A stretch of DNA of 64,000 bases, taken from the NCBI GenBank assembly GCA_024860875.1, contig JACPSZ010000017.1, forward strand, positions 62,001-126,000. The letters are read 5' to 3'. Position numbers and translations under genes: made by a program. The DNA comes from Nitrososphaerota archaeon (lineage in GTDB: Archaea > Thermoproteota > Nitrososphaeria > Nitrososphaerales > UBA57). Shown here one piece after another: positions 4,845-40,690 of this stretch. Below the pieces are notes generated by a model. That model saw nothing but the letters and a program-made list of their open reading frames with translations. It made no database searches and was not told the DNA's origin. How positions within the stretch are numbered: the first letter of the stretch is position 1; each line of letters opens with the position of its first letter.

Positions 4845-5567
4845 TTAGAATGATGCACTTAACGGCACCTCGTTTACAACATACGCAGTATAGAGTGCGT
4901 CAGAAATGCTCCATAGAACATCGTTCTTGAAGGATACGGCGTCTATTGCACGCTTCTGCAGCTCTGCAGCATCGCAGTATCTTACTGCTATGTCCAATGC
5001 TATGTTGCTGTCTCTTTTAGTCTGAATTAGCCTTGATCTAAAGTATCCAAGGCCCTCTGACTTTACCCAGCGGTAGTGCTTCTCGAAGGCTTTGACCCTC
5101 TCAGCCAAAGCTTCGTAGAACAGATCGGAAAGAGATGCTGCAACTGATTCAACCCAATGCCTAGTCCTTGCAAAGTTCACGTATGAGTCTACGGAGAAAC
5201 GCACTCCAGGCAGAAACCTTGCAGAGATCATGTCGTCCTTGGGAATTCCAGCGGCTTCCCCGAGCTTTAACCATCCAGTTATCCCGCCTTCAACCTTTCC
5301 GTAGCCGTCATGCTCGAGTATCCTCGAAATCCAGAACCTCCTAACTTCAGGTATGGGACAATTGGAGATTATCGCAGCATCCTTCATCGGTATATTCAGC
5401 TGATAATAGAACATGTTCACTATCCATGCCCTTACCTGTGTCTTCGTGAGTTTGCCTTCGAACATCATCCTGTTGAACGGATGCTTTGTGTGGAACCTCT
5501 CGTTCCCTTCTCCTCTAAGCTTTTGGATGAAGGTTTCCCTGTCAAGAGGGCTTCTTGCATAATTCAT
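4845..5567 (-). CDS. pqqC: Pyrroloquinoline-quinone synthase PqqC
   Basis: Strong PqqC-like motifs: HPFNRMMFEGKLTKTQVRAWIVNMFYYQLNIPMKDAAIISNCP, HDGYGKVEGGITGWLKLGEAAG, PGVRFSVDSYVNFAR, RSRLIQTKRDSNIAL. Confidence 0.9.
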   Translation of the reverse strand: MNYARSPLDRETFIQKLRGEGNERFHTKHPFNRMMFEGKLTKTQVRAWIVNMFYYQLNIPMKDAAIISNCPIPEVRRFWISRILEHDGYGKVEGGITGWLKLGEAAGIPKDDMISARFLPGVRFSVDSYVNFARTRHWVESVAASLSDLFYEALAERVKAFEKHYRWVKSEGLGYFRSRLIQTKRDSNIALDIAVRYCDAAELQKRAIDAVSFKNDVLWSISDALYTAYVVNEVPLSASF

Positions 5568-5649
5568 TCGTGCCCTAGCATTAACAGTTATGCTATATGG
5601 CTTTTTGTGCTGAACCCTTAAATATAGTCGTAAGATTAAGCGCTCTTTA

Positions 5650-7569: not shown

Positions 7570-10098
7570 TTACTTTAGCTTGATTTCGAGAAGGTCCAGC
7601 CTATCGCGCAGCTTTCGGTTATCTTCCTTCAACTTATCAAGGTCGTCGCGTAGAGCCTTGAACTCCTGAGTCCTATCCCTGTCCTCGCGAATCTTTTTCA
7701 TGGCCTCTTTGGCCCTGCGCTTCACTCTTCCTTCCAATTCCCTGTCAACGAGTTTCTGCAGTTCGCTTAGCGACCTAGTGTCCCTGAACTCCTCTATGGA
7801 TGCAATGGCGTAAATCTTGACCCTCCACCAGTAGTCGTACAGCAGATTATGCAGAAAGTCCAGAACGTTGGGCTTGCCTCTTGCAAGCCTTCCAAGTATT
7901 CCTACTGCAGCTTCGCGAGCCTTCTGCGGTTTCCCGTACTTGCCCCATTCCATAGCTATGGGTATGGCTCTTTCGTCGCGAAGAGCGTCGAAGCCCTGAA
8001 ATGCACCTACCCTGATGGTTTCGTTGAACGACTCCTTCTCAAGAACCTTCTTCAGAGCGTCAAACGCCTTCTGCGACCTTGTTTTGCCCAGAGACGTTGC
8101 AGTTTCCATCTCCACAAAATAGCTCTCGTCATGCTTGAGAACCTTGATTAGAGCGTAAGCAGCCTCATCGTCCCTGAATTCTCCCAAAGCCTTAACAACG
8201 CCTCTTCTAGCTTTCGGATGTTTTACCGAGAGGCACTGCAATAGCGCTTTGAGAGCGACCTTAGAACGAATCTGGCCCAATGCCTGAGCAATCCTCGATT
8301 GGACGGCCCAGAATTTTTCCATAAGGAAGGCAGACTTTAGCTCATCAACCACGTCTTGAGTGCCCAACTTTGCAAGCTCCTGCACAACTCTTATCCTTTC
8401 AATCGGTGCTGGGCTTTCTTTCAGAATCTTCAGCAGCATTTCTTTTGGCCTTGCGAATTCAAGCGTCTTGAGTATCCAGTTAGAAGGATCGAACTCTACC
8501 GCACTCGGAGCTTCATTCATAGGGAATAGGAATGTTTGTTGCTTCTCCTTTAGGTCTATGCGGTGAACCCTTCTCTTTCTTGCAGTGATTGCAATTTCAA
8601 TTGGGAGCATGAAGACTGGAGTTTCCCCGTTTGTGGACTGGTTCTGATTTACAGTCACCTTTGCAGTCTTCGAACTTTCGTTCCATTCATAGCTTACCTT
8701 GAATTCAGGGTAGCCAGACTTTTTGAACCACTGATCGAAGAACGGCTCAAGGTTTCTTCCCGTAGCCTCCTCTATCGCCCTGCGAAAGTCTTCAGTAGTT
8801 ACATTCTGCATTTTGTGCTTTTGGACGTAATGCCTTATCGCCCTCCAAAATTGGTTGTCGCCGAGAACGAACCTCAGCATGTGCAATATCAGAGCGGCTT
8901 TGTTGTAGAGGTGCCTGTCGAAGAGCTCCACGGAGTCTTCGTAGACGTTAGTGACTATCGGCCTTCTATAACGCTCCCTGTCTTCTCCAAAGTACTCTTC
9001 TGCTTCGAGCAGCATCTTATATGCGAATTCGTCGCTGCCGAGGTGATGTTCATGGTAAAGCGCTTCAAAATACGTTGCAAAGCCTTCGTTCAGCCAAGCG
9101 TTGGCCCAGTCCCTGCAGGTTATCAGATCGCCGAACCACTGGTGTGCGAGCTCATGGGCGAGCAATTCGTCGCTGTTGTAGTCAATCATGGCCCTCTTGT
9201 CAAGCAGGCAGGAATCCGTTAGCGTAGTTGCGTTCGTATTCTCCATTCCTCCAAAGATGAAGTCAGCGACCGTCACCTGCGAATACTTAGGATAAGGGTA
9301 CTTCAAACCAAGGCTCTTGCTGAAGAACTTCATCATGTCTGGCGTATTTACAAAGGTTCTCTTGGCGTCCTCCTCCCTTCCCTTCGGAACGTAATATATT
9401 ATTGGTATCCCATCGTAGCTATCTTTCAGCTCGGAGAATTCTCCAGCAACTAGTGAAATCAGGTATACAGAATGCGGTATTTCGTGCGACCAGTGGGATG
9501 TTTTTGTCCCATTCTTGTTAATCTTCTGCGATACAAGTTTCCCGTTTGATACTGCAACGAACTTCTTTGGAACTGTTGCTATTACCTCGCTGGTCACCTT
9601 TACATTCGGATCATCAATTGAGGGAAACCAGAAGCGAGATTCGTCAGATTCGCCTTGCGTCCAAGCCTGAATAGGTCTGTTTGGGTATTCCTTGTCTGGA
9701 TAGTTGAAGAAGATGCCCCTTCTGGGCGTGCAAGAATATTCGATATTGATTGTGAATTTTTCCCCCTCTTTCATTTCCCTTCCTAGGCTTACAGATAATT
9801 TGCCATACGTCTGGCTGAACCTCAGATTCGTTCTCCCGAATTTCACGCTTTTGATGTGGAGTTCAACTGCATCAAAATCAACAGCAGAGACTCCAGAAAC
9901 TTTTGCACGAAACTGTGTAGAGACCTTTCCGTAAAGTTTCTTGTTTTTGAAATCTGGTTTTACTTCGAGTTTTACATGCTCAGCTTGGACTAGGGTATCG
10001 CGGGCGTAATGCTCTGTAGCACTGGGGAATGCAAATGTACTATGAACCGCATCTGCCATGCCGCAGTTTCCAACAACGCTGTCCTTCATGCTATACAC
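7570..10098 (-). CDS. M1-family aminopeptidase with C-terminal HEAT repeats
   Basis: HELAHQWFGDLITCRDWANAWLNEGFATYFEALY zinc site, GGMENTNATTLTD; C-terminal HEAT-like helices. Confidence 0.92.
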   Translation of the reverse strand: MYSMKDSVVGNCGMADAVHSTFAFPSATEHYARDTLVQAEHVKLEVKPDFKNKKLYGKVSTQFRAKVSGVSAVDFDAVELHIKSVKFGRTNLRFSQTYGKLSVSLGREMKEGEKFTINIEYSCTPRRGIFFNYPDKEYPNRPIQAWTQGESDESRFWFPSIDDPNVKVTSEVIATVPKKFVAVSNGKLVSQKINKNGTKTSHWSHEIPHSVYLISLVAGEFSELKDSYDGIPIIYYVPKGREEDAKRTFVNTPDMMKFFSKSLGLKYPYPKYSQVTVADFIFGGMENTNATTLTDSCLLDKRAMIDYNSDELLAHELAHQWFGDLITCRDWANAWLNEGFATYFEALYHEHHLGSDEFAYKMLLEAEEYFGEDRERYRRPIVTNVYEDSVELFDRHLYNKAALILHMLRFVLGDNQFWRAIRHYVQKHKMQNVTTEDFRRAIEEATGRNLEPFFDQWFKKSGYPEFKVSYEWNESSKTAKVTVNQNQSTNGETPVFMLPIEIAITARKRRVHRIDLKEKQQTFLFPMNEAPSAVEFDPSNWILKTLEFARPKEMLLKILKESPAPIERIRVVQELAKLGTQDVVDELKSAFLMEKFWAVQSRIAQALGQIRSKVALKALLQCLSVKHPKARRGVVKALGEFRDDEAAYALIKVLKHDESYFVEMETATSLGKTRSQKAFDALKKVLEKESFNETIRVGAFQGFDALRDERAIPIAMEWGKYGKPQKAREAAVGILGRLARGKPNVLDFLHNLLYDYWWRVKIYAIASIEEFRDTRSLSELQKLVDRELEGRVKRRAKEAMKKIREDRDRTQEFKALRDDLDKLKEDNRKLRDRLDLLEIKLK

Positions 10099-16407: not shown

Positions 16408-18765
16408 TTATGCCTTCTTTCTTCTGCTGAATAGTACTCCAGATATTACTACTAGTACTACTCCTATACCAATTGCGGCATAGGATATTGGGCTGATCGT
16501 CTCCACTGTGACTGTTGGTCCTGGCACTGGTACTTCTTTGATGACTTCTTTCTCTACTGGTACTTGTACTTCCTTAATGACCTCTTTCTCTACTGGTACT
16601 TCTTTGATGACTTCCTTAATGACATCTCTTGGAACTTCCTTGATCACTTCCCTAACTTGAGGCTGTGGTATTACATCTGGAAGACCGAATGCTACAAGAG
16701 TACCATCAAGTACATTACTGACACCAGCACCGAAGAGGAATCCACCTCCACCTCCTACATGCATGAAGATCCTGTATTTGCCGTCCTTTGTCGCACCTAT
16801 CGTAGGCATTACGTTGACTGGCACACCGAAGAACTTCTCATGTAGCAGTTTACCACTTGTAGCATCTAGGAACTTCAGGTTACCGTCTGCAGCATAGACC
16901 ACGACCATGCCTCCAGTAGTCATTATGCCCCCTCTGAATGCCGCATTATCAATCTTGTATGACCATACCTTCTTTCCTGTATTGACGTCTACAGCATCTA
17001 CATTTGCATCGACGATCCATTCAGTCTGTTGTGGGAATGCTGTTCTTGGAGTGCCTCCAACACCATTGTTTCCAAATGCTCTTACAGGTCCAAAGTTATG
17101 AGTGCCCATGTTGTTGAATGTGGCTACATATACGCGGTTGCCATCGTATGCAAAGTCAGATTCAAGACAGACTGTGTAGCAGTTCTGTACAATTGGTCCT
17201 TTCTCCGGATAGTTCATCCATGGCTTGCCCATGTCTTCCTTTGTAAGCCTGCAGCAAGCTTCTCTGTCTGTTGGCCTGTTGTTAGCTCCAACACCGTAAT
17301 AGGTTTGAATGTTCTTTCCTCCTCTGAGTATGGTAGGAGGATCATACACCCAGAATGGCTTTCCAGTATTCCAGTCTAATGCATAGACAATTCCATTCTT
17401 GCACCCTTTAATGAATGCCTTCTGGCCCTGAACACTTGCTATGACGCCTACCCATGAGCAGTCATAGTCCCATAGGTCGTGCGGAATGGCTTGGAACCAC
17501 CATACTATTTTGCCCGTTCTGACATCGTATGCTGATAATCCACTTCCATGTATAGCTGGACCATATCTGTGTGTTAGATTTGTATATGGACCTTGGTCTC
17601 CCCAGCCCAATGCGACTATACCAGTTTCAGGATCAATTGGATAGGTACCCCAAACCGCTGAGCCAAAATTGGTAGCAGGGTGTAATTTTCCAAAGGTTGG
17701 CGATCCTGGCACTAGATCAATCCCATCGTTCTTTACGACATCGTCAGCCACGTCAGTACATTTTGTTGCTAGATATGTTGGTTCTCTGTCTCTTGCTGGA
17801 TAGTTGATACCCTCCAAGTATCTTGGATACTCAAAGTACCATCCATTTCCGTTTGCAGCTCTGCATTGGTTAATGGCCCAGTCAGGGTCTCCTTGAGGAC
17901 TAGGTGAAGTGAACTCCCTGTATAATCTCTTTGGATTTGCAGGGTCGCTCATGTCGAATGCAGTCACAAAGTTTCGACCTCCGGCACCACTGGCACCAGC
18001 TATAGGGAAGAACATGATATTGCCAAGGAATTGTGGAGGATGTGTACCTAAACTGGACATGAAACCGCCAGATACGGAACCTATGATTCCCTTTGTTGGA
18101 TCACCGAATTCAGCATTTGTACCGCATATCTGCTCTGTTGTCAGAGTCCATGCGGTCTTGCCAGTCTTTGCATCTACTCCATATAGGTTGCATGACCCAA
18201 GTGAACTGGTGATGAGCCAGCCTTTGTCTCTATAATAGTTGATCGCATGTCCATGGGCAAGTACCCTTTGTAACCATGGATATTTTGCATTTTCCTCCTC
18301 AGCCTTGAACTGATAACCGTATGTATTATTCCATATTAGTTTGCCTGTCCCTGCATCAATGGCAAGAATTCTCCTGTCGTTGAGTAGAACGTATGCTACG
18401 CCATCGACCACGATGACTGGGGCTCCAGAACCCATGTGTGCCGGACCCAATTGTGTTGAAAGTGTGAACCTTGTGTATGGATAAATCCACTTTGATTCAA
18501 GGTATTGGACGTTATCTTTGTTAATCTGGTTCTGGGGACTGTAGCTTCCTCCAGTTGGCTGATAGTTCACATGCTCCCAGTTGCCTGTTGGGACTGACGG
18601 AGCAGCTCCTCCTACTGGAGGACCTCCAGGATCAAAAGCACTCACAGATTTTGTTAGAGATGCCATGACTGACGAAGCTATGAGTAGAGCTGCTACCAGC
18701 AGAGTGAGGATTGTTAGTCTTTGAGTCACAACTTTCTTTTTTACCACAGAGTCGTTTGAACTCAT
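16408..18765 (-). CDS. PQQ-dependent dehydrogenase (large type) with VIKEVP-repeat stalk and C-terminal TM anchor
   Basis: Propeller repeats, QGDPDWAINQC, LWDYDCSWVG, GGIMTTGGMVVVYAADGNL; stalk VIKEVPRDVIKEVIKEVPVEKEVIKEV; TM plus RRKKA. Confidence 0.93.
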   Translation of the reverse strand: MSSNDSVVKKKVVTQRLTILTLLVAALLIASSVMASLTKSVSAFDPGGPPVGGAAPSVPTGNWEHVNYQPTGGSYSPQNQINKDNVQYLESKWIYPYTRFTLSTQLGPAHMGSGAPVIVVDGVAYVLLNDRRILAIDAGTGKLIWNNTYGYQFKAEEENAKYPWLQRVLAHGHAINYYRDKGWLITSSLGSCNLYGVDAKTGKTAWTLTTEQICGTNAEFGDPTKGIIGSVSGGFMSSLGTHPPQFLGNIMFFPIAGASGAGGRNFVTAFDMSDPANPKRLYREFTSPSPQGDPDWAINQCRAANGNGWYFEYPRYLEGINYPARDREPTYLATKCTDVADDVVKNDGIDLVPGSPTFGKLHPATNFGSAVWGTYPIDPETGIVALGWGDQGPYTNLTHRYGPAIHGSGLSAYDVRTGKIVWWFQAIPHDLWDYDCSWVGVIASVQGQKAFIKGCKNGIVYALDWNTGKPFWVYDPPTILRGGKNIQTYYGVGANNRPTDREACCRLTKEDMGKPWMNYPEKGPIVQNCYTVCLESDFAYDGNRVYVATFNNMGTHNFGPVRAFGNNGVGGTPRTAFPQQTEWIVDANVDAVDVNTGKKVWSYKIDNAAFRGGIMTTGGMVVVYAADGNLKFLDATSGKLLHEKFFGVPVNVMPTIGATKDGKYRIFMHVGGGGGFLFGAGVSNVLDGTLVAFGLPDVIPQPQVREVIKEVPRDVIKEVIKEVPVEKEVIKEVQVPVEKEVIKEVPVPGPTVTVETISPISYAAIGIGVVLVVISGVLFSRRKKA

Positions 18766-19706: not shown

Positions 19707-20957
19707 TTACCGTGGATTGAAATTTGCTGAGAATAGTCTAGTCATAACGATGTCAACATTTTGTCCCTTCTTGATTGATGATTTAGGAGCCAACATCAAA
19801 TAACCATCAGCCCTGACAAAACTGGAAAGGATGTTCGAACCAGAGGGGTGAATAGGTTCAGCTTTGACATTGCTCCCTTGATGAATTAGTTTGACAAGAA
19901 CAAAACGGGTCATCTCATCACTCTCTATATCCTCAGTAATTGTTGCCCTGATTAATACCCCATCTAATTCTCTTCTTGTTAGAATCTTCCGAAGCATTGC
20001 CCTTCCAAAAATGTAGAATCCAAAGATACAGGAAACAGAAAAACCTGGCGTGAGCAGTATAGGTTTTCCTTCAATCGATGCAAGTGCTATAGGGCTTCCT
20101 GGGCGCATCGCAATTCCATGAACAAGTACTCCAGGTCTTCCCAGTGTGCCGACGACCGTAGGGAGCAAGTCTTTCTCTCCTACAGATGTACCACCACTTG
20201 CTATAACTGCATCAGATTTTTTCAAACCTTCCTCTAATTTTCTTCTTATCTCATCCTCATCATCGTGTGCTATGCCAAGGTCAATTGGTATTCCTCCCTC
20301 CTCTTTCACAAGAGCACTTAGGATAATTCTGTTGGTATCGTAAATCTTCGCTCCACTCATCTTTTGCCCTGGATTGAGTAATTCGTCTCCTGTTGAAAGA
20401 ATTGATACTCTGGGCCTCTTCGTAACTGTGATGATGCCAATTCCAAGAGCGGATAAGATACCTAAATCCTGAGAATACAAGAATGTACCCGCTTGAAGAA
20501 CAGTCCCGCCGCGCTTTATGTCGCTTCCTCTATACGTTACATTCTCTCCCTTTTCCACCGATTTGATGAACTCGACCTTGTTACCGCCTCTTTTGGAATA
20601 TTCGAACATGACAACAGCATCCGCACCATTGGGAATCATAGAGCCTGTAGAAACAAAAGCACACTCTTGTCCCCCTACCCTGAACTTTGGGGGAGTACCA
20701 ATTTTCACTTCTCCAAGGAATCTAAATGTAAAAGGATTCTTAAGAGACGCGTTTACATCTTCGGATCTAACGGCGTACCCGTCTCTCGTTGACATGTTCT
20801 CACTCGGCAAATCAACCGATGCCACCACGTCCCTTGCAAGTACCCTGTGTAGCCCCTCAATTGTAGGAATGCTTTCCGTACCCGTGTGTATCGTTATTGC
20901 ATCGAGGAACGTAGCAAGCGCCTCTTTAATAGGAGTATACTTCAGGAATTTTTTCAT
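19707..20957 (-). CDS. moeA: Molybdopterin molybdotransferase MoeA
   Basis: LPSENMSTRDGYAV, STGSMIPNGADAVVMFE, STGDELLNPG, ASGGTSVGEKDLLP, GIAMRPGSPIALA. Confidence 0.96.
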   Translation of the reverse strand: MKKFLKYTPIKEALATFLDAITIHTGTESIPTIEGLHRVLARDVVASVDLPSENMSTRDGYAVRSEDVNASLKNPFTFRFLGEVKIGTPPKFRVGGQECAFVSTGSMIPNGADAVVMFEYSKRGGNKVEFIKSVEKGENVTYRGSDIKRGGTVLQAGTFLYSQDLGILSALGIGIITVTKRPRVSILSTGDELLNPGQKMSGAKIYDTNRIILSALVKEEGGIPIDLGIAHDDEDEIRRKLEEGLKKSDAVIASGGTSVGEKDLLPTVVGTLGRPGVLVHGIAMRPGSPIALASIEGKPILLTPGFSVSCIFGFYIFGRAMLRKILTRRELDGVLIRATITEDIESDEMTRFVLVKLIHQGSNVKAEPIHPSGSNILSSFVRADGYLMLAPKSSIKKGQNVDIVMTRLFSANFNPR

Positions 20958-21035: not shown

Positions 21036-21518
21036 TTGAGCAGAATAAAGCAAAAAAATCCTGCAATGGAGGTTTCAATGGTAAACATTTCTGAAAAGAC
21101 TAGAGTTCACAGGGAATCGATCGCGGTAGGCTCGATCAGACTTAATTCAGATACAATCCGAAAGTTAAAATCAGGTCAGACCGGGAAAGGCGATGCCATT
21201 CAGATAGCAAAGATCACAGGGATTCAGGCGGCAAAGCTTACCCCCCTTCTAATTCCTCTCTGCCACCCTATACATATCGAACATGTAGATATCAAGACGA
21301 AGATACTAAAAGGTTCGGTTGAAATTACTGCTAAAGTCGTTTCAGAGGGCAAGACGGGCGTTGAAATGGAAGCATTGACTGCAGTTTCTGTAGCACTGCT
21401 TAATATTTGGGATGTTGTCAAGGCATATGAGAAGGATGAAAAGGGTCAATATCCGAGCACGGTAATTGAGCGAATAAGTGTAAAGAGCAAAGTGAAGAGA
21501 AAGATTGAAGACTCATAA
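21036..21518 (+). CDS. moaC: Cyclic pyranopterin monophosphate synthase MoaC
   Basis: VHRESIAVGSIRL, KITGIQAAKLTPLLIPLCHPI, TGVEMEALTAVSVALLNIWDVVKAYEKD. Confidence 0.95.
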   Translation: MSRIKQKNPAMEVSMVNISEKTRVHRESIAVGSIRLNSDTIRKLKSGQTGKGDAIQIAKITGIQAAKLTPLLIPLCHPIHIEHVDIKTKILKGSVEITAKVVSEGKTGVEMEALTAVSVALLNIWDVVKAYEKDEKGQYPSTVIERISVKSKVKRKIEDS

Positions 21519-22017
21519 ACAACATAGGGTAGATTCTCCAAAAAAAATTGCTATAGCCGTCTTTACCATTAGTAGTAGCAGGTTCCGAGCTAAAAAAAAG
21601 ACTAATCAGTCAGGCACACTGATAATCAACGCCCTGAAAAATGCAGGGCATGATGTTTTAGACCTTGGAATTTTGGATGATGATTCTAAGATGATTACTA
21701 CACAAGTTATGGGAGCTGTGCGGTCGCAGAAGGTAAACGCGGTAATCTTGACAGGAGGTACGGGTCTTGCAATTAGAGATGTTACTACGGAAACCTTAGC
21801 TCCACTTTTTGAAAAAACGATACCCGGGTTCGGAGAGATTTTTCGTTATGAAAGTTACAGGAAGATAGGTACTGCAGCGTACCTCTCAAGGGCGACTGCG
21901 GGTATAATTTCAGGTAAGCCTGTCTTCTGCCTTCCAGGATCCCCAGAAGCAGTTGCTTTGGGTATGAAACTAATCATTCCTGAGATATCCCACACAGTTT
22001 TCATAGCAAAATCCTAA
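21505..22017 (+). CDS. moaB: MoaB/MogA-family molybdopterin biosynthesis protein
   Basis: AVILTGGTGLAIRDVTTETLAPLFEKTIPGFGEIFRYESYRKIGTAAYLSRATAGI, PVFCLPGSPEAV. Confidence 0.93.
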   Translation: MKTHKQHRVDSPKKIAIAVFTISSSRFRAKKKTNQSGTLIINALKNAGHDVLDLGILDDDSKMITTQVMGAVRSQKVNAVILTGGTGLAIRDVTTETLAPLFEKTIPGFGEIFRYESYRKIGTAAYLSRATAGIISGKPVFCLPGSPEAVALGMKLIIPEISHTVFIAKS

Positions 22018-22068: not shown

Positions 22069-22521
22069 TTACTGTATCCAAGCATAACTGTTGTCGACAT
22101 ATAGCTCCTTCTTGAACAAAGCGGGTTCTTTTTTGTAACGCTTGACCGATTCTTGCATAGCCAAGAAGACATTCTCTTTTCTGGCACCTCCTACAACAAC
22201 CAAGACCACGGGCTCGCCTACACGAAACTGCCCTACAAGATGATGGATTGAAACAAAGTGAACTTTGAATTTCCTCTTTACCTCGTTGCAGATCTTTAGG
22301 ATTGCTTTGTTCGCATGCTTCTTGTACGACTCCATTTCAAGTTTGGCGACTTCCTTCCCTCCTCTCCCCTCGCGACGGGCAACCCCTATGAAGACTAGTA
22401 ACGCACCTATCTCTCCAGACAGATTTGATTTTAGTATGTAGCTCAATGCATCTAAGAGATTTACCTTACCCTTTCTATGAATACCCGGCTTTAGCATTAG
22501 ATCTGACGAACCCATAACCAC
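22069..22521 (-). CDS. moaE: Molybdopterin synthase catalytic subunit MoaE
   Basis: GALLVFIGVARREGRGGKEVAKLEMESYKKHA, VHFVSIHHLVGQFRVGEPVVLVVVGGARKENVFLA. Confidence 0.93.
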   Translation of the reverse strand: MVMGSSDLMLKPGIHRKGKVNLLDALSYILKSNLSGEIGALLVFIGVARREGRGGKEVAKLEMESYKKHANKAILKICNEVKRKFKVHFVSIHHLVGQFRVGEPVVLVVVGGARKENVFLAMQESVKRYKKEPALFKKELYVDNSYAWIQ

Positions 22522-22937: not shown

Positions 22938-23240
22938 ATGCAGGCATCGTCGGAAAGGTATGTTTTGGTCAAATACTTTGCAAAGGTCAGAGAGATTACA
23001 AAAAAGAGGGAAGAGAAGATACCAATTCGAAATCCAACAACTGTAAACAAATTTCTTTCAGAACTCTTCTCTAAGTATGGATATCAATTGAAGGAATTTG
23101 TCATGGAAAGTGATGGAGCCTTGAAGAAAAACATAGGAATACTTGTGAACGGTTCTTCAGTTCATAGCAACAAGATGAGAGAGCTCCATCTTAGCAACCA
23201 TGATGAGTTTGTCATTCTCCCTCCGATAGCTGGAGGATAA
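22938..23240 (+). CDS. MoaD/ThiS-like ubiquitin-fold protein
   Basis: VKYFAKVREITKKREEKI...; C-terminal LPPIAGG. Confidence 0.88.
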   Translation: MQASSERYVLVKYFAKVREITKKREEKIPIRNPTTVNKFLSELFSKYGYQLKEFVMESDGALKKNIGILVNGSSVHSNKMRELHLSNHDEFVILPPIAGG

Positions 23241-23272: not shown

Positions 23273-24004
23273 TCAGATCGATGAGGCTGTAAAATACGTT
23301 CCAATGGTTACCAAAATTACCCCTATGATGCGTCTTACACCTAATTGTGCTAATCTTTTCGAGCCCAAATAACTTCCCAATTGAGCGGCTATGATAACTA
23401 CGGGTATTGTTATCAAAAGAAGTGGATTCGGAAGGATGGGTGTTAGTCTGGGAGCTCTGGCTGCGATCCCAGCCAGTGAATTTAGCATAATAAAGACCGT
23501 TGTAGTCGCAGCCGAATTCTTAGGCTCAGCTATTCCTCCAAGAATCAGCAGAGGGGCCAAGTACACGCCACCTCCAATGCCCGTTACTCCTGCAGCAATA
23601 CCTATCATGATGCCCAAGAGGATCTTTAGAGTTACGCTAAGTCTAATGGTACGCAAGGGCGATGTTGCTATTATGACTGCCAGTCCGCCTATTGCTATAG
23701 AGGTTCCCATGATTATTTTTAGTACTTGTTCGGGTAATATTAGCGAGCCACTGAAAAAAGCTGCTGGCACTGACCCCGCAATGAACCATAGCAGATCTTT
23801 TGACAAATGTATTCTCCATCTAGTTAAAGAGCTCATTGTGGAAAAAATATTGAAGATTAGGCCAGCAGTAGCGGTTTGACCGGGTGGTTGCCCTGACAAC
23901 AGCAGAATGGCGATGAACATCGAGCCGCCCGCAAAACCTCCCATGGTGTAGAACAAACCCGCTAAGCCAAGTAAAGATACTATGATCAGCTCGCCTGATT
24001 CCAT
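23273..24004 (-). CDS. TauE/SafE-family sulfite exporter-like permease
   Basis: GFAGGSMFIAILLLSGQPPGQTATAGLIFNIFSTMSSLTRW, GIAAGVTGIGGGVYLAPLLIL. Confidence 0.88.
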   Translation of the reverse strand: MESGELIIVSLLGLAGLFYTMGGFAGGSMFIAILLLSGQPPGQTATAGLIFNIFSTMSSLTRWRIHLSKDLLWFIAGSVPAAFFSGSLILPEQVLKIIMGTSIAIGGLAVIIATSPLRTIRLSVTLKILLGIMIGIAAGVTGIGGGVYLAPLLILGGIAEPKNSAATTTVFIMLNSLAGIAARAPRLTPILPNPLLLITIPVVIIAAQLGSYLGSKRLAQLGVRRIIGVILVTIGTYFTASSI

Positions 24005-24144: not shown

Positions 24145-25218
24145 TCAAGTCTTGATGCAGCTCACGGAAAATATACGTGGCAGATTCTCAGCAATCTTTT
24201 GCCATGACTTGGCCCCATCGGTACTGCAAAAGACTTGACCATTTGTACAACCCACATAGATACCGCATTGTTCCTCTCCATCCGTGGCCATGGCCTCTCG
24301 TAATACGTTAAAGTAAGACCTTTGAGGTAGTCCTTCGGAGCTCTTGAACCAGCTCCTTCCACCGTCCTGTGTAACCCAAAGTTGAAACACTCCATTAGGA
24401 GGATAACGTCCTCCAGCCTCTACTGGTACAACATAGACTTCGTCTGGCTTATGAGGGTGCACTCCAATCGGGAAACCAAAGTCGCTTGGCAATGATTTCC
24501 CGATTTCGTTCCAATTTTTTCCAAAGTCCCCACTGACATATACTCCGCCGTGATTTTGAAGATACAGCACATCAGGTTTTGAGGAATTATGGTCGATCTT
24601 GTGGACGCACTGGCCGTATTCAGGGTATTTCTCTGGGAGAAAATCAGCCCGAATGCCTTTGTTCATGAATTTCCATATCTTCCCTCCATCATCGCTACCA
24701 AGAACACCGACCGCTGAAATTCCTACGCGTATTTTGTTTTGTTGATTTGAATTTATTACGATTGTGTGCAAGCAAAGTCCACCGTTTCCAGGCTGCCATT
24801 CCTTACGCGTCTGATGGAAGTTCAGCGAGTCAAAACCCTTCCATGAATCGGAGCCATCCTCACTAACGAATAGGGCAGCAGGTTCCACTCCCGCATAAAG
24901 GCGATGGTCTTTGTCGAACTGCAGGTTCCATATCCTTTTGACGCTCAACTGGTAAGGATTTTTCTTAGGGAAACGAGGATGGTTCCTAGCCTTTCTCCAA
25001 GTACGTCCGGAGTCTTTACTCTTGTAGATCACTGGTCCCCATGTCCAGGTGTTAACCCCGGCATAAAGACTCGGACGACCTTTACCCTCTTCTCCAATCA
25101 TGTCGTAAGTGTCGAAACCCTCGAAGAAGGGCCCATGCATTTTCCAGGTTCTTCTTGATGGGGAACCTTCGAAGATAAAACCACCTTTGGCCGTACCTAC
25201 TAGAACCAAAACAGTCAA
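24145..25218 (-). CDS. BNR/sialidase-like beta-propeller protein
   Basis: Asp-box-like repeats SKDSGRTWRKA, SEDGSDSWKGF, SGDFGKNWNEI, TQDGGRSWFKS, STDGAKSWQKI. Confidence 0.88.
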   Translation of the reverse strand: MTVLVLVGTAKGGFIFEGSPSRRTWKMHGPFFEGFDTYDMIGEEGKGRPSLYAGVNTWTWGPVIYKSKDSGRTWRKARNHPRFPKKNPYQLSVKRIWNLQFDKDHRLYAGVEPAALFVSEDGSDSWKGFDSLNFHQTRKEWQPGNGGLCLHTIVINSNQQNKIRVGISAVGVLGSDDGGKIWKFMNKGIRADFLPEKYPEYGQCVHKIDHNSSKPDVLYLQNHGGVYVSGDFGKNWNEIGKSLPSDFGFPIGVHPHKPDEVYVVPVEAGGRYPPNGVFQLWVTQDGGRSWFKSSEGLPQRSYFNVLREAMATDGEEQCGIYVGCTNGQVFCSTDGAKSWQKIAENLPRIFSVSCIKT

Positions 25219-25785: not shown

Positions 25786-26814
25786 TTAGCCACCAATTGA
25801 GTGCATGGGTCTAATGTGCCTAATAGAAAGCACCTGGTCTAATTTTCTTTCCACACCCGCATCTTTATTCCAGAAACATCTCTTTATGAAATCCGCAATC
25901 TGCACGTCTGAAGCTCCCTCCTTCAATAGTGGTCTTAGGTCATATTCACTAGAACTGAAAAGGCAAGGAACAAGGTTGCCGTCAGCTTTTAGCCTTACTC
26001 TGTCACAATCTCCACAAAAGGGAGAAGTGATTGATGTTATGAGTCCTATCTTGCCTTGACCATCGGAAAACTCAAAGAGCGTAGATGTGCTTCCTGGTTC
26101 CCTTGGCATAGGCTGCAGTTCGTATGACTGCTTTATTCTTTCAATTATTTCTCTCCCAGAGAAGACTTTTTCTGGGTTCCACAGTTTCTTCCCGTCAAAA
26201 GGCATGTATTCGATAAATCTGATCGTCAACGCGGTTTTGTGAGCCAATGAAGCAAATTCAACCACTTCATCGTCGTTGAACCCCTTTATTACAACACAGT
26301 TTATCTTAACTTTCAGCCCCGTATCCATAGCCGCCGTAATACCATTAAGGACTCTTTCGTAAGCAAACTTTCCTGTAACATTTTCAAATCTTTCCTTCCG
26401 TAAGCTGTGTAAGCTAACTGTTACGCCGTTCAGGCCTGCCTCTTTCAGTGCTTTCGCTTTTTCTTCAAGGAAGAACCCATTGGTGGTCATATTGATGTTA
26501 GATATTTCTTGAATATCTCTCAGCATTGCTACAAGTTCATGCATGCAATTTCTGGCTAGAGGCTCGCCACCACTCAACCTAATCGTATCTACACCAAGTG
26601 AAGCAAAGATTTTCGCGAGGCGTTCAATCTCTTCAAATGAAAGAATCTCCTCTTTAGGGAGCCATGATGGATGTTCAGGCATGCAAAAGGAGCATCTGAA
26701 GTTGCATTTGTCAGTGACAGAAATTCGTAGTTTTCGAGCTACACGTCCATAGGAATCCATCAGCACGTCAGATTTCTTACTGGCCTGACTATCTAGGCTT
26801 AGGGCTTGAGCCAT
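25786..26814 (-). CDS. moaA: GTP 3',8-cyclase MoaA (radical SAM)
   Basis: VTDKCNFRCSFCMPE (CxxxCxxC), RLSGGEPL, SPFCGDCDRVRLKADGNLVPCLFS. Confidence 0.96.
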   Translation of the reverse strand: MAQALSLDSQASKKSDVLMDSYGRVARKLRISVTDKCNFRCSFCMPEHPSWLPKEEILSFEEIERLAKIFASLGVDTIRLSGGEPLARNCMHELVAMLRDIQEISNINMTTNGFFLEEKAKALKEAGLNGVTVSLHSLRKERFENVTGKFAYERVLNGITAAMDTGLKVKINCVVIKGFNDDEVVEFASLAHKTALTIRFIEYMPFDGKKLWNPEKVFSGREIIERIKQSYELQPMPREPGSTSTLFEFSDGQGKIGLITSITSPFCGDCDRVRLKADGNLVPCLFSSSEYDLRPLLKEGASDVQIADFIKRCFWNKDAGVERKLDQVLSIRHIRPMHSIGG

Positions 26815-28117
26815 CTTTACTCTTTTCTACCGCTAATGGTGTATAATAGGCTTCCCCGAGGCCAATCTTGATATTGTTGCTTGAGGATTCTCCTTCGTAT
26901 ACGCTAACATTGGGTATTATCGGAGCCGAGATTAGAGGTGCCACCTTTACTGAATATGTCCATGTCAAAATTCCTGTCTTGAGAAGGGCTACGCCGAGCA
27001 TTGAACCAAGACTAAAAAGCCCAAACCCAAACCCGTACGAACCTGCTAGATCTCTTACAGTGCCGAGGGTCAAGGGAAGCATAAAACCTCCAAGACCACC
27101 TACTGCACCAACTAAGCCCGTAGCAAGGCCTATCTGTTTAGGAAACCTTAGCGGCACCAGCTGGAAAATTGAGCCGTTCCCCATTCCCAAGAAAAGCATC
27201 GTGGTGAAGAGCAGCACGATCGCAATATACAAAGAAGGCAACTGAGCTACCCCGATCGTTGTCACAGAAGCTGACGAAAGTAGTAGCAACAACATCTTTA
27301 CGCCACCTATTCTATCCGCTAAGTACCCTCCTATAGGTCGGAAGAAGCTTCCTGCAAGTATACAGACTGTAGTGAAAGTCCCTGCATCAATAGCGTTTAG
27401 GCCGTAATGATCATGAAAGAATATACCAAGATAGCTGCTGAAACCGACAAATCCACCAAAGGTTACGCTGTAGAGAAAGGCAAGCGCTAAGACATCTTTA
27501 GATCTGAGGAGTCGAGCATATTCAGATACCCTCTTGATTTCTTTATTACTGCTCTCCTTTGTAAAAAAGGTGAATGCGCCTAGAGTTAAAGCAAGTGGAA
27601 TCATGTATAACGCAAAGACATTTTGCCATCCATAAATTGAGGCTAGCCTAGGCGCGAAGAGCGTTGAAATGAGGGTTCCGCTGTTCCCAGCCCCAGCTAT
27701 TCCCATCACTAACCCTTGATACTCCTTTGGATACCATCTGCTGGCCATTGGCAAAGCAACGGCGAAACTTGCACCTGCTGTCCCGAGCAGAAGTCCGAGG
27801 GCAATGAAATCCGACACGCTATTGGCAAAGAGCCATCCCCAAAACAGTGGTACAAAGGTAAGCATCATTCCAATGATCCCCGTCCTCTTGTATCCTATCT
27901 TATCTGCGATTATCCCAAAGGGAATTCTAAGTAGTGCCCCACCCAGAACTGGGAAAGCGGTTACTAGGCCCTTCTGAGTAGGAGTCAGCCCTAAATCCTG
28001 AGATATGTATACGCCCAGAGCTCCCACCATCACCCAGACCATGAAGCTGATATCAAAGTAGAGGAAGGAGCCAAGAAGCGTTGGGAAGTGGCCTACCTTA
28101 AGAAATTTCCTCTCCAA
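26789..28117 (-). CDS. narK: NarK-family nitrate/nitrite MFS transporter
   Basis: LGLTPTQKGLVTAFPVLGGALLRIPFGIIADKIGYKRTGI; GIAGAGNSGTLISTLFAPRLASIYGWQNVF. Confidence 0.9.
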   Translation of the reverse strand: MERKFLKVGHFPTLLGSFLYFDISFMVWVMVGALGVYISQDLGLTPTQKGLVTAFPVLGGALLRIPFGIIADKIGYKRTGIIGMMLTFVPLFWGWLFANSVSDFIALGLLLGTAGASFAVALPMASRWYPKEYQGLVMGIAGAGNSGTLISTLFAPRLASIYGWQNVFALYMIPLALTLGAFTFFTKESSNKEIKRVSEYARLLRSKDVLALAFLYSVTFGGFVGFSSYLGIFFHDHYGLNAIDAGTFTTVCILAGSFFRPIGGYLADRIGGVKMLLLLLSSASVTTIGVAQLPSLYIAIVLLFTTMLFLGMGNGSIFQLVPLRFPKQIGLATGLVGAVGGLGGFMLPLTLGTVRDLAGSYGFGFGLFSLGSMLGVALLKTGILTWTYSVKVAPLISAPIIPNVSVYEGESSSNNIKIGLGEAYYTPLAVEKSKDGSSPKPR

Positions 28118-28129
28118 TGAGTCACCTTC

Positions 28130-28846
28130 TTACCGAGGTTCCCCTACTCTTCCAATAGGAGGTGTAATGTTGTACCTCTGTAACCACTGATGTCCTAATC
28201 TTCCAGTGTTGCTCTGGCTCAGAAGGCGCTTAATGCCAATCGGATCACGTTTGAAAGCTCTGATAGAGGACAACCACTTTACACTTTTGTATCCTTGAAG
28301 GAAGGGTACCACAAGTCGCAAGGGGCCTCCGTGAACCTCTGGAAGTGGAGTCCCATTCAGACCTGTTGCCAGCAGAACCCGTGGATCTCGCGCATTGTCC
28401 CTAGAGAGTTTCTCAAAATACCCTCCGTCACGAGAGTAAAAGGCATAAAAACCATCATAGGGCGTCTCCAGCAACTTAACGTGGTCTAGAAAATCTACGA
28501 GGCGTATTCCCTCCCATTCAACCTCCTCTGACCAATTGAATATCTGGCAAATGAGTGGAACCCGCATTCTTACCCTAGGAATGGATTCCAGTTCAGCCCA
28601 AGGAACTGATCTCTTCTTGCAGTCTAGACCGCATACTTCTATTTGCAGCTCCGAAAGGGAGATTGGTTCGGGAATCGGGTATAGGCACAATACGGGCATT
28701 GGGTTTGCGTCAAAATCTATCTTGGCGAACTGTTCAGCAAATTTCGGGTAGTTTACACCTTCGCGCTTACGTCGTACCGGGGTATTCTCAAGAACCGTTG
28801 TTGGAGAATCGATCTCAACAGAATTGGTAAGTTGAGTTTCAGTCAT
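28130..28846 (-). CDS. SUOX-family molybdopterin-dependent oxidoreductase
   Basis: Moco-ligand context VPLICQIFNWSEEVEWEGIRLVDFLDHV; DPRVLLATGLNGTPLPEVHGGPLRLVVPFLQGYKSVKWLSSI. Confidence 0.9.
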   Translation of the reverse strand: MTETQLTNSVEIDSPTTVLENTPVRRKREGVNYPKFAEQFAKIDFDANPMPVLCLYPIPEPISLSELQIEVCGLDCKKRSVPWAELESIPRVRMRVPLICQIFNWSEEVEWEGIRLVDFLDHVKLLETPYDGFYAFYSRDGGYFEKLSRDNARDPRVLLATGLNGTPLPEVHGGPLRLVVPFLQGYKSVKWLSSIRAFKRDPIGIKRLLSQSNTGRLGHQWLQRYNITPPIGRVGEPR

Positions 28847-28852
28847 ACTACG

Positions 28853-30808
28853 TCACCTAATTTGAATCCCTGCTTCTCCAGCACGTGATTGTATAGCCCC
28901 TGCGCCGGAAACTATTGGCTGGATAGTTTTCTCGTCAATTTCTTTTACCAAAAAACCATTATCTTGTGGAACCAGCTTGAAGGTTCTGGCACAAAGTGTA
29001 CGTTCGGTGGAGCAAGCACCGGTGCCAATATCGAATCTATAGCCATGACGGGGGCATACCACTTCGTTACCTTCTACGCTTCCCTCTGCTAGCGAAGCTC
29101 CCTCATGAGGACAGCGATTCTGGATTGCGATAAAGCGTCCCTGATGCTTGAAAACGGCAACCTCAGTGCCGTTCACAAATACCACCTTACTAGCACCCTC
29201 AGCTAATTCATCCTGCCTGATGAAAACCTTCGAATCGACGATCTCCTTGGTAGTTATACGGGGCTGCAATGATGTTTGTTGAGGTGCCCTCAGGTTCTTC
29301 CTTATCTTATCAAAGGCTCCAAATCGAATTAGCCCTTCCAAAACTTGCGGCAGCTGATCGCATGGTACATTCTCCATGATTTGGATTCCCCGATTTGCAT
29401 CCGGTCCTGACGAGCCCCCCACGAAGATGTCCACTCCATCAACCATCTTGTCATCTAACTTGACCATCCTACCCAGAAGTCCAATATCAGCGACAGTGTG
29501 ATTACCGCAGCCTGCGGGGCATCCAGACCAGTGGATTGTAATGGGTTGCTTCCGGTCCACTTTCCTCTCAATTTCTCGGGCTATTTGCAATGCGCGATTC
29601 TTGGTTTCTATGACAGCAAGGTTGCAGTACTCTATCCCCGTACAACTTACAAGGCCTCTCATGATTTGAGTCGGGTTGTACCCAAAGACCTTAAGCAAGG
29701 GCTCATCAAGCAAGGTGGAGAGTTTCTCGTCTGATACGTGAGGAATTATGAGGTTCTGATTCGTCGTCAGCCTAATTTCACCCTTGCCATAAGTTTCGGC
29801 GAGCCGAGCAACGTCTTCAAGCTGATCACCAGTTATTCGGCCAACAGGAACCTTAAGGCCAACATAGTTCGTATGGGCTTGCTTCTGGCGAAATACACCA
29901 ATATGATCTGTTACCTTCGGAAGCCTAGCGTCGAGCCCAGCTCGTAATAGAGTATAAGCAAGCCTAGACTCTAGTGCTTCTCTGAACTTCTCAATTCCCC
30001 ATGCATCTATCAGGAAAGAGAGGCGAGCCGAGTTTCTGCCTTCCCTGAATCCATGATCCCTAAACAAGAGGGTTATAGCGCTTGCAACTTCTGCAGCCTC
30101 CTCAGGCCTGACAAACGCATCCAATGCAGAAGCAACTCTATAGCCACCCGAACCGTTTTTGCCTCCAACCAATACATTAAATCCCTTTATTGTCTCGCCC
30201 TCGACTTCTTTTGTTGCAGGTACAAATGCGATGTCTTGGGTTCCGGCGTGAGTGCAGTTCTCCAAACAACCTGTGATAGTGACATTAAATTTTCGCGGAA
30301 GGTTCGTGTATGCTTTGTTCATTACGAACATTGCAGTAAAAGCTTGGGCTATAGGAGAGGCGTCTAGAAGCTCATTTGTTGTTAGACCAGCAACTGGGCA
30401 ACCAACTACGTTTCTGATGTTGTCCATACCAGTCTGAAGAGTCACAAGCCCAACATTGCGAAGTTGATTAAGCATCTCCGGAACACTTTCGATCCTGACA
30501 GAGCGGAGCTCTATCTGCTGCCTAGTAGTGATATCAGCTATACCATTTCCAACCCTGTTTGCAATGGACCCTATTGCTCTAAGCTGGGATGACGTCGTTA
30601 TTCCATTAGTAATTCTAATTCGAATCATAAAGTATCCCGGAGTGCGTTTCCTGAAGTAGACGCCCCACCACTTCAGCCTGTGATCTCTATCACCTGCAGG
30701 AATTGACTCCCATCCTAGCTCCGCGTAGCGAGAAATGTCTTGGCCGACATCAAGGCCGTCCTTCTCAGCCTTCAATTGTTCGATTTGGTTATTTGCGGCA
30801 GCCTGCAC
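28853..30808 (-). CDS. nirA: Ferredoxin-type nitrite/sulfite reductase (NirA-like) fused to C-terminal Rieske [2Fe-2S] domain
   Basis: Siroheme/4Fe-4S motifs CTGIEYCNLA and HWSGCPAGCGNHTVADIGLLG; Rieske CPHEGASLAEGSVEGNEVVCPRHGYRFD. Confidence 0.92.
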   Translation of the reverse strand: MQAAANNQIEQLKAEKDGLDVGQDISRYAELGWESIPAGDRDHRLKWWGVYFRKRTPGYFMIRIRITNGITTSSQLRAIGSIANRVGNGIADITTRQQIELRSVRIESVPEMLNQLRNVGLVTLQTGMDNIRNVVGCPVAGLTTNELLDASPIAQAFTAMFVMNKAYTNLPRKFNVTITGCLENCTHAGTQDIAFVPATKEVEGETIKGFNVLVGGKNGSGGYRVASALDAFVRPEEAAEVASAITLLFRDHGFREGRNSARLSFLIDAWGIEKFREALESRLAYTLLRAGLDARLPKVTDHIGVFRQKQAHTNYVGLKVPVGRITGDQLEDVARLAETYGKGEIRLTTNQNLIIPHVSDEKLSTLLDEPLLKVFGYNPTQIMRGLVSCTGIEYCNLAVIETKNRALQIAREIERKVDRKQPITIHWSGCPAGCGNHTVADIGLLGRMVKLDDKMVDGVDIFVGGSSGPDANRGIQIMENVPCDQLPQVLEGLIRFGAFDKIRKNLRAPQQTSLQPRITTKEIVDSKVFIRQDELAEGASKVVFVNGTEVAVFKHQGRFIAIQNRCPHEGASLAEGSVEGNEVVCPRHGYRFDIGTGACSTERTLCARTFKLVPQDNGFLVKEIDEKTIQPIVSGAGAIQSRAGEAGIQIR

Positions 30809-30928: not shown

Positions 30929-31495
30929 ATGGATATTGCCAAAGCGTACAAAATGGCATCTGTACCAAGCAGAATCACATTTGCTTTTGATAAGGATGAA
31001 GAAACACTCCTCAGGAAGACTAGCAAAGAAGCTAATGTGTCTGTAAGTGAACTGATAAGGAGGGCTGTCAAGTTCTATTGCAAGTACAGAGACGTCATTG
31101 AAGGAGATATGGAAAGGAAGATCAGGACCTATCTAGATTTACTTCCAAATGGCGAACACCAGATAATAGATATCGAGCGGTGGATTTTGTTCATGAGAAT
31201 GGTGGAAGCGTTACCCAGCGATCACGAATTCTGGGATTCGTGTATACGTATCGCAAGGGATCAAGCCGAGGAATTCAAGGGCAAGATTGGGAGTCCGCAA
31301 GCTGCCCTAGAGAGGCTAGAGGATTGTAATTGGTTTCGATTGCAGAAGAACGCAGAGAAGGAGTTTACGTTGGTGCTGAATTCGGAAATGTCTAGGAGAT
31401 TTGTGGAGTTTGCTGTAGCTCAACTTCTATCAGCGATGGGATACAAAGCCGATCTGAAAACGAATCTGGGGAAAATACGAATTAGGCTGTATTGA
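30929..31495 (+). CDS. Ribbon-helix-helix (CopG-like) transcriptional regulator
   Basis: PSRITFAFDKDEETLLRKTSKEANVSVSELIRRAVKFYCKY; divergent from nirA. Confidence 0.75.
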   Translation: MDIAKAYKMASVPSRITFAFDKDEETLLRKTSKEANVSVSELIRRAVKFYCKYRDVIEGDMERKIRTYLDLLPNGEHQIIDIERWILFMRMVEALPSDHEFWDSCIRIARDQAEEFKGKIGSPQAALERLEDCNWFRLQKNAEKEFTLVLNSEMSRRFVEFAVAQLLSAMGYKADLKTNLGKIRIRLY

Positions 31496-34061: not shown

Positions 34062-34550
34062 TTATGGGCTTACCTTTATGGTGCCTGACATTTCGTGAAA
34101 TGCTATCACGCAGTCGAAGTAATAGGTGCCAGGCTTGTCAAACTTGAACTCGAACTTGTCTCCGGGATTTAACTGCCGGTGAAACAGAAGAATACCGTCG
34201 GCTGTAAAGTTCTTACTAGTTGCAGTGTGAATCTCTTTGTCGACATTCTCCCATATTACTGTAGAGCCTACTGGAACGTTTACGAAGGACGGCGTGAAGG
34301 CACTTTTACTTACAGCTTTTATCACAACTGTTGTAGGAGGCAGCATGTCTGCAGGGTCGGCTCCTATTGGAGGGGCATTGTTGAAGACTTGCTTTGGAAG
34401 CTCTAACTTTGGCTGTCCTGCTTGCTGCGTTTGAATTGATGTGAAAAAGACTATTCCGCCTGCAATCACCAAAAATACAACCCCTAAAACACCGATAAGT
34501 ATCTTGGAGATCACCTTAGATTCACTTGACGCAATAACATTTAGAAACAA
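34062..34550 (-). CDS. Membrane-anchored cupredoxin
   Basis: SKILIGVLGVVFLVIAGGIVFF TM; FTPSFVNVPVGSTVIWENVDKEIHTATS; YYFDCVIAFHEMSGTIKV. Confidence 0.88.
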   Translation of the reverse strand: MFLNVIASSESKVISKILIGVLGVVFLVIAGGIVFFTSIQTQQAGQPKLELPKQVFNNAPPIGADPADMLPPTTVVIKAVSKSAFTPSFVNVPVGSTVIWENVDKEIHTATSKNFTADGILLFHRQLNPGDKFEFKFDKPGTYYFDCVIAFHEMSGTIKVSP

Positions 34551-39359: not shown

Positions 39360-39782
39360 TTGGCTACTAGAGCTACCACAGTAGCAATAGGTATAGTGGT
39401 AGTAGTTGCTGCTATCATCGCTGTATTCTTTACAGCGCAGGCCGGTAATTCCGTAGGATCACGGACAGCCGCAGAAGTAGCTATAGCGCTCAATGCGTAC
39501 ATTGCCCCTGCTAATTGGGAATCTGGTTATTTGATTGATGACAAGTTCTATGCGCCTAGTACAGTTACAATCAGGGTAGGAGAATCAATAAGGTGGACAA
39601 ACAGAGACACTACTATACATACGGTAACCTCGCAAAAGGTGCCTAATGGAGCGAGCACATTTGATTCGAGTTTCGTAGATCCAAGCAAGACAGTCGTTTT
39701 TACATTTAGAGCAGCAGGAGAATATGAATACTTTTGTACGTTGCATCCCTATATGGGCGGAAAGGTTCAAGTCCTGCCATAA
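39360..39782 (+). CDS. Membrane-anchored plastocyanin-like cupredoxin
   Basis: YAPSTVTIRVGESIRWTNRDTTIHTVTS; GEYEYFCTLHPYMGGKVQV. Confidence 0.9.
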   Translation: MATRATTVAIGIVVVVAAIIAVFFTAQAGNSVGSRTAAEVAIALNAYIAPANWESGYLIDDKFYAPSTVTIRVGESIRWTNRDTTIHTVTSQKVPNGASTFDSSFVDPSKTVVFTFRAAGEYEYFCTLHPYMGGKVQVLP

Positions 39783-40690
39783 TGTACAGAAGGTCTTTTC
39801 TACTTCTAACCCTTGCATGGTTTGTATTAGTTGTGCCTCCGGCATTCGCTCATGAGCAGGAGGCATTAATCGGGAAGTACAAAATAAAATTCAATGTTAT
39901 CCCTGACGAACCATCGGTTGGAAAAATTGCCGTGCCCGTTGTTTTCACCTACAAAGTCGAGCTGGTAGATCTTGGGCAAGAGGTACAAATCAACCTCATC
40001 AGGATAAACATTACATCGCCAAGTGGGAATTTGGCTCAACATCTCTATCAAGGAGATCGAGCTTTCCATATAATGACAGAAGCGGGACAGCACAAAGTTG
40101 ATGCGGTATTGACACTTGCAGATGGTACGATATTGCCTACGAATTTTTTGGTTGCAGTACTACAAGAAGGTTCAAGCACTAGTCCTTTTGAAATGTTCTT
40201 TCTCAGTTTATCCGTTTTTGGTCCTATTTCGCTTATCAAAGCTGTGCACATCGGTGCAGCGGCAATTTGGATAGGAACTTCATTCCATACTTTTCTGGTT
40301 GTCAGATCCCCTGACAATGGAAGCAAGATATCTCTAATGAATAGCAAGTATGGTAATGCTCTGCTCTACACTACAACTTTTGCGGTAGGTATTGTTGTAT
40401 CAACCGGATTGATCAATGCAATCTACAAACACAGAATTGATTTTGATTCTCTTGTGAATACTGCGTATGGATTGACTCTCTTTGTAAAGATGCTGGCTGT
40501 TATTCCCGTTCTGATATTTGGGGGTTTGATAGAATTTCGATACTTGCCAAGGCTACGAAGTCCTAATTCTGGGCGGATGAAGAATCAGGCGATTCTGCGC
40601 TTGAAGACACTTTTGATAGCTGAATTATCCCTCTTCGCGCTAATAGTCTTCGTAGCAACAGTATTTACTGCATTGCATCCATCTGCATGA
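39782..40690 (+). CDS. CopD-like copper transport membrane protein
   Basis: Signal peptide, HEQEALIGKYKIKFNV, then multi-TM region ISLIKAVHIGAAAIWIGTSFHTFLV. Confidence 0.72.
   Translation: MYRRSFLLLTLAWFVLVVPPAFAHEQEALIGKYKIKFNVIPDEPSVGKIAVPVVFTYKVELVDLGQEVQINLIRINITSPSGNLAQHLYQGDRAFHIMTEAGQHKVDAVLTLADGTILPTNFLVAVLQEGSSTSPFEMFFLSLSVFGPISLIKAVHIGAAAIWIGTSFHTFLVVRSPDNGSKISLMNSKYGNALLYTTTFAVGIVVSTGLINAIYKHRIDFDSLVNTAYGLTLFVKMLAVIPVLIFGGLIEFRYLPRLRSPNSGRMKNQAILRLKTLLIAELSLFALIVFVATVFTALHPSA

Follow-up and report, generated by a model that had tools for sequence, protein, structure and literature searches.

A putative cytosolic nitrate reductase of the SUOX fold in an archaeal nirA-narK operon and in several bacterial phyla

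To our knowledge, every nitrate reductase known from bacteria and archaea belongs to the bis-MGD enzymes of the DMSO reductase family, the only ones that annotation pipelines seek. The 64,000-nucleotide stretch of Nitrososphaerota DNA analysed here (the window) raises the question of whether a quite different molybdoenzyme could take this part. A sequence-only reading had noted that a NarK-type transporter, a siroheme nitrite reductase fused to a Rieske domain and a SUOX-family protein of 238 aa adjoin on one strand near Moco genes, and that a bis-MGD gene is absent from the window; both observations hold. It had further proposed that the small protein is a plausible nitrate reductase, since eukaryotic nitrate reductases are SUOX-family, and that its electrons might pass through the Rieske domain. 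What does this protein do, and how widely is the arrangement shared?

The archaeal operon and its genome

The genes nirA-Rieske, SUOX, narK and moaA lie head to tail in a tight minus-strand operon (Table 1), with gaps of 6 nt (nirA-SUOX) and 12 nt (SUOX-narK) and an overlap of 26 nt between narK and moaA; the other Moco genes are found less than 10 kb away. The genome comprises 1.67 Mb in 25 contigs (91.6% complete), and the window belongs to contig C8, within whose 234 kb the operon sits. A misbinned or spurious gene was ruled out by this position and because a second contig, C9, which carries the nitrite oxidoreductase (NXR)-type genes described below, agrees with the window in tetranucleotide composition, whereas the bacterial relatives do not. 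The divergent gene 5' of the operon, with a weak ribbon-helix-helix/RelB-like N-terminus, encodes a possible regulator. The window also harbours a Sortilin/BNR-repeat protein, a PQQ-domain dehydrogenase-like protein, two cupredoxins and a CopD-like protein.

Table 1. Positions of the operon, of surrounding genes and of features at other loci
Feature	Location	Strand	Remarks
nirA-Rieske	window 28853..30808	minus	651 aa, GTG start; ferredoxin-type siroheme nitrite reductase with C-terminal Rieske [2Fe-2S] domain
SUOX-fold Mo protein	window 28130..28846	minus	238 aa; predicted cytosolic; candidate nitrate reductase
narK-type MFS nitrate/nitrite transporter	window 26789..28117	minus	442 aa
moaA	window 25786..26814	minus	Moco biosynthesis; overlaps narK
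Sortilin/BNR-repeat protein	window 24145-25218		between moaA and TauE gene
TauE/SafE-family (sulfite exporter) gene	window 23273-24004
moaD	window 22938..23240	plus	ThiS family
moaE	window 22069..22521	minus
moaB/mogA	window 21505..22017	plus
moaC-like	window 21036..21518	plus	read from translation
moeA	window 19707..20957	minus
PQQ-domain dehydrogenase-like protein	window 16408-18765		PQQ match
Divergent gene	window 30929-31495		possible regulator
Two cupredoxins and CopD-like protein	window 34062-34550, 39360-39782, 39734-40690
nxrA	L041 (G000:C9) 4428-7919	minus
nxrB	C9 3272-4426	minus	NxrB-type ferredoxin protein
nxrC-like	C9 2286-3260	minus	ethylbenzene-dehydrogenase-type gamma subunit
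torD-like chaperone	C9 1664-2392	minus
moaD-like	C9 1312-1695	minus
mobA	C9 687-1307	minus
PQQ-domain dehydrogenase-like protein	C9, L041 13661-15292		assigned by reading its sequence alone
SUOX-P-II fusion	L014 2474-3592		one of several examples
SUOX-P-II fusion	L102 6627-7781		one of several examples
Distant SUOX clade member	L039 531-1043		Polyangium MAG
NxrA/DMSO-II-type protein	L123 715-4146		G084, Elusimicrobia MAG

The fusion protein consists of two NIR_SIR/NIR_SIR_ferr repeats and a C-terminal Rieske domain (PF00355, 63.1 bits), and narrowly passes the NCBIfam model for ferredoxin--nitrite reductase (NF007125; 595.9 vs 594 bits). Both the siroheme/4Fe-4S motif (C389-x5-C395 / C429-x3-C433) and the Rieske motif (C566-P-H...C-P-R-H) are complete. 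The latter domain is similar to NirD of the NirBD system; its fusion to the C-terminus of NirA sets the protein apart from NirA and NirBD, and in the bacterial relatives examined the two are not fused. For the transporter, TIGR00886 is by far the best family, with 277.5 bits under a cut-off of 311.7.

The whole genome holds a single SUOX gene and a single PF00384 gene; no PF20256 (xanthine-oxidase-family) or MOSC protein was detected in it. The PF00384 gene, located on C9, encodes an NxrA homologue of 1163 aa which matches NxrA of Kuenenia (7b04) over its full length (E 4.4e-277 over 10-1158) and scores 31.7 bits against the NasC profile; NasA/NarB was found nowhere in the genome. The protein possesses a Tat motif, which the SUOX protein does not, and it is accompanied by nxrB, nxrC-like and torD-like genes, with the domains Fer4_11, EB_dh and Nitrate_red_del among the neighbours. 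The absence of NasA/NarB from the window thereby extends to the genome, though an exported molybdoenzyme of another nitrate/nitrite-active type weighs in part against the sequence-only reading. The NXR-type set at 687-7919 on C9 is complete and may encode either an archaeal nitrite oxidoreductase or a nitrate reductase that is exported. Homologues of its NxrA (41-73% identity) occur in seven more genomes of the archaeal order (G014, G038, G043, G020, G024, G053 and G046; L113-L119), so that nxrA is no binning error, and a 'periplasmic type' narG was earlier reported in two Nitrososphaeria MAGs, one of them from groundwater (PMC10833072). A further PQQ-domain dehydrogenase-like protein is encoded on C9 (Table 1).

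The nitrite reduced by NirA might be environmental, or come from the exported NXR-type enzyme working in reverse, with NarK importing nitrite and SUOX being auxiliary or redundant. The nxrA-nxrB-nxrC-torD-mobA set with its Tat motif makes nitrite outside the cell possible, the composition of C9 agrees with that of the window, and NarK-family proteins are able to carry nitrite. A precedent is the nitrite oxidiser Nitrospina, in which nirA acts on nitrite (PMC3578206). Against this, SUOX is kept beside NirA in many genomes in which NXR was not seen, among them a complete one (G111, see below), and genes for Moco synthesis travel with SUOX. We regard this explanation as unlikely.

The SUOX protein and its relatives

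The 238-aa protein matches PF00174 with 91.5 bits (cut-off 24) over residues 62-201, and Pfam reveals no second domain. Its AlphaFold model (mean pLDDT 82.6) is matched best by sulfite oxidases, with a fold match probability of 1.00, and MsrP and the nitrate reductase of Pichia are also retrieved with high probability, at TM-scores near 0.5. Domain, fold and Mo-ligand Cys place the protein in the SUOX superfamily (Oxidored_molyb). The ligand, Cys100, is invariant in 35/35 clade sequences and opens the motif C-Q-I-F-N-W, which runs on directly without the C-x-G-N-x-R loop that is present in the sulfite oxidases of Thermus and Nitrobacter; a short loop at this position is common to the clade, E. 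coli MsrP and small sulfite oxidase-like proteins. Neither a Tat motif nor a hydrophobic stretch was found at the N-terminus, and the protein is predicted to be cytosolic. The Mo dimerisation, cytochrome b5 and FAD/NAD domains of eukaryotic nitrate reductase are all absent, and all NCBIfam sulfite oxidase equivalogs are missed by a wide interval (SorT 33.7 vs 570, SorA 33.2 vs 600, SoxC 25.5 vs 420 bits). Membership of either family, sulfite oxidase or eukaryotic nitrate reductase, was rejected on domains, loop and cut-offs.

These scores also bear on a role of SUOX as a cytosolic enzyme of sulfite oxidase type, which would clear sulfite and thereby keep a competing substrate away from the siroheme nitrite reductase. 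The fold, the top structural match and the TauE/SafE-family gene about 4 kb from the operon would suit such a function, but the protein falls far under the SorA, SorT and SoxC cut-offs and lacks the sulfite oxidase loop, while the P-II fusion and NarK partnership described below indicate nitrogen rather than sulfur. We consider a sulfite-clearing role improbable.

A search of species genomes returned 38 relatives with at most 67% identity, nearly all from Nitrospirota, Chloroflexota, Elusimicrobia, Lindowbacteria and a few other phyla; SUOX matches within the archaeal order reach ~24-34% identity at best. In the phylogenetic tree, which contains several long branches and few references (E. coli MsrP, a Nitrobacter sulfite oxidase, small 'sulfite oxidase-like' proteins and archaeal paralogues, without eukaryotic nitrate reductase), all 38 members are grouped together by a branch that has 99% SH-aLRT support. 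The phylogeny that the sequence-only reading had called for bears out a distinct clade, neither sulfite oxidase nor MsrP; nor does the protein appear to belong to eukaryotic nitrate reductase, with which it was compared by profile and fold.

It is likewise conceivable that the protein is akin to MsrP or to the 'sulfite oxidase-like oxidoreductases', themselves uncharacterised, and serves in repair or as another kind of reductase: MsrP is the top NCBIfam match (NF003767, 50.6 bits), and the short loop recurs in the MsrP of E. coli and in the small proteins. The MsrP cut-off of 207 bits is missed, however, no Tat signal and no MsrQ-like partner in the operon were found, and both the separate clade and the nitrogen gene context speak against this assignment, which we judge very improbable.

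Descent of the block within archaea was rejected. A homologue of the archaeal NirA was found in none of 120 other archaeal genomes (E <= 1e-60), and the archaeal SUOX relatives do not exceed the identities given above. Judging from these comparisons, the nirA-SUOX-narK block was most likely acquired by the archaeon from bacteria; no exact donor emerges from the trees of SUOX, NirA and NarK. A Polyangium MAG contains a distant member of the clade next to a Rieske gene, without NirA.

Gene neighbourhoods and Moco-enzyme inventories

The SUOX-NirA-NarK module is not unique to this archaeon but recurs in several bacterial phyla. Conservation was assessed in the 33 clade loci whose downstream sequence spans 4.5 kb or more, counting partners on the same strand within 7 kb. 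A siroheme nitrite reductase is found in 31 loci, a P-II gene or domain in 28 and NarK in 25; relatives without NarK or NirA nearby are L012, L020, L021 and L039. As two dissimilar types of nitrite reductase and two dissimilar types of NarK partner this one clade, SUOX plus a nitrite reductase appears to be the fixed part of the module, with partners being exchanged. In Elusimicrobia and Leptospirillum-type genomes the cluster also includes Moco genes, with moaA present in both. In a group comprising Leptospirillum, Manganitrophus, Troglogloeales, Lindowbacteria and Acidobacteria, PF00174 and PF00543 occur in a single ORF, i.e. SUOX carries a C-terminal P-II domain (Table 1). We know of no described case of such a fusion, and our search of the open-access literature found no paper on the SUOX-NirA cluster.

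The electron route suggested earlier fares less well. A Rieske protein is encoded in just 4/33 loci, and it was rejected as a general electron donor; nor do the clade loci share any other conserved electron-carrier partner. This makes ferredoxin the more general guess.

Further insight comes from the molybdoenzymes encoded alongside SUOX, searched for as four families (SUOX, PF00384, PF20256 and MOSC). The complete genome G111 (a single contig of 2,559,538 bases, whose SUOX is nearest to that of L007 and of a Leptospirillum MAG) encodes one SUOX, with moaA and moaD inside the SUOX cluster, a lone PF00384 protein that is NuoG-like without a Mo-ligand Cys, and neither PF20256 nor MOSC proteins. 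Similarly, the Elusimicrobia MAGs G081 and G086 possess one SUOX and no PF00384, PF20256 or MOSC match, and moaA-E-C-B stand in the cluster. If no other Moco enzyme exists in those genomes, Moco would be made for the SUOX protein, beside a nitrate/nitrite transporter and a nitrite reductase.

The best match to the NasC profile in each SUOX genome was classed by the residue after the Mo ligand. The Cys-Met pattern of nitrate reductases was observed in NasA/NarB-type enzymes of four genomes (G063, G072, G073, G074) and in NapA of G064, and G273 holds a NasA-like enzyme with Cys-Thr; in the remaining genomes the best match is a Cys/stop-His formate dehydrogenase, a NuoG-like protein that lacks the ligand or an enzyme of another type, or there is none. 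As these genomes are mostly MAGs, absences are soft. A clean mutual exclusion of SUOX and NasA, which we had looked for, is contradicted by these coexisting cases. At L005, a NasA and FeS-DmsC pair precedes SUOX by ~5.6 kb on the same strand, so that SUOX is no simple replacement of NasA there. In L106, L107 and L108 a NasA-type protein is followed by a fused 4Fe-4S/DmsC membrane protein, adjoined in L106 by gltBD-like genes; this pair is a candidate for an unusual quinol-linked cytosolic nitrate reductase. One Elusimicrobia MAG with a SUOX cluster (G084) also encodes an NxrA/DMSO-II-type protein.

As SUOX and NasA can coexist, a function other than nitrate reduction is possible. SUOX could, for example, handle nitrite or another N-oxide, e.g. 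by reducing nitrite to NO, a reaction of which animal sulfite oxidase is capable; moreover, the constant partner is a nitrite reductase, with NarK being present less regularly. Yet a nitrite-consuming side reaction next to a P-II-controlled assimilatory nitrite reductase would waste nitrogen, and of all the readings considered we give this one the least credence.

Two bacterial cases touch on growth and physiology. Leptospirillum ferriphilum has been described with NirA and without a nitrate reductase (PMC5418355), a gap which the SUOX enzyme could fill if the species carries it. Manganitrophus enrichments, which are mixed cultures, were kept on nitrate as nitrogen source (PMC9040806); Manganitrophus was dropped as a clean case of growth on nitrate because G273 encodes a NasA-like enzyme and SUOX is frameshifted in the G079 assembly.

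Proposed function and comparison with known systems

Nitrate reduction is the best-fitting function in view of the partners, the regulator and the genomes with isolated Moco use. On balance, we think it probable that the SUOX protein is a cytosolic single-domain Mo nitrate reductase of an uncharacterised clade, which carries out the first of the reductions encoded by a nitrate assimilation operon. NarK would import nitrate (or nitrite); at a mono-pterin Mo centre ligated by Cys100, SUOX would reduce nitrate to nitrite, which NirA-Rieske would convert to ammonium, with electrons presumably supplied by ferredoxin or a similar small carrier and, in the archaeon, perhaps by the fused Rieske domain. 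The bacterial versions may be regulated by P-II. The nitrate reductase proposed at the outset keeps its lead, given the lack of NasA/NarB and the SUOX-NirA-NarK partnership retained in many bacterial genomes, but in a form other than the eukaryotic one. Whether these proteins constitute a new prokaryotic class of assimilatory nitrate reductases, i.e. single-domain cytosolic SUOX-fold enzymes, controlled directly in some lineages by a P-II domain fused to them, which were passed on horizontally between Nitrospirota, Chloroflexota, Elusimicrobia, Lindowbacteria, Acidobacteria and an archaeon and evolved separately from the eukaryotic SUOX-type enzyme, appears to us evenly poised.

If the clade does reduce nitrate, organisms described as lacking a nitrate reductase, e.g. 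Leptospirillum, would turn out to assimilate nitrate, and nitrate reduction would have arisen in the SUOX fold outside eukaryotes as well. The fusion with P-II would be an unusual tie of a molybdoenzyme to nitrogen status. Being small and soluble, the SUOX proteins lay this question open to direct testing.

Among the known systems, the eukaryotic assimilatory nitrate reductase (Pichia angusta, PDB 2bii) has in common with the archaeal protein the SUOX fold, the Cys-ligated Mo centre and the proposed reaction. The resemblance extends to the gene neighbourhood, as fungal nitrate reductase genes cluster with those for nitrite reductase and a nitrate transporter (PMC6400420, PMC2040219). In the archaeal protein, however, both the additional domains and the long loop that follows the ligand Cys are absent, and similarity to the family profile is weak (E 3.6e-7). 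NasA, NarB and NasC share the proposed role and the partners NarK and NirA/NirB, but NasA/NarB are bis-MGD Fe-S enzymes of ~700 aa from the DMSO reductase family, with a fold unrelated to SUOX. The NXR of Kuenenia and of the Nitrospira type is represented by the second molybdoenzyme of the archaeal genome and its companion genes, a set which stands outside the SUOX operon. MsrP (YedY) is likewise a SUOX protein without a dimerisation domain and with a short loop, but is exported via Tat and pairs with the membrane protein MsrQ. Finally, the small 'sulfite oxidase-like oxidoreductases' of uncharacterised function agree in single-domain size and in a motif of the C-x(3)-W-S type, but show only ~30% identity to the SUOX clade, form a clade apart and, in the few checked, have no nitrogen gene context.
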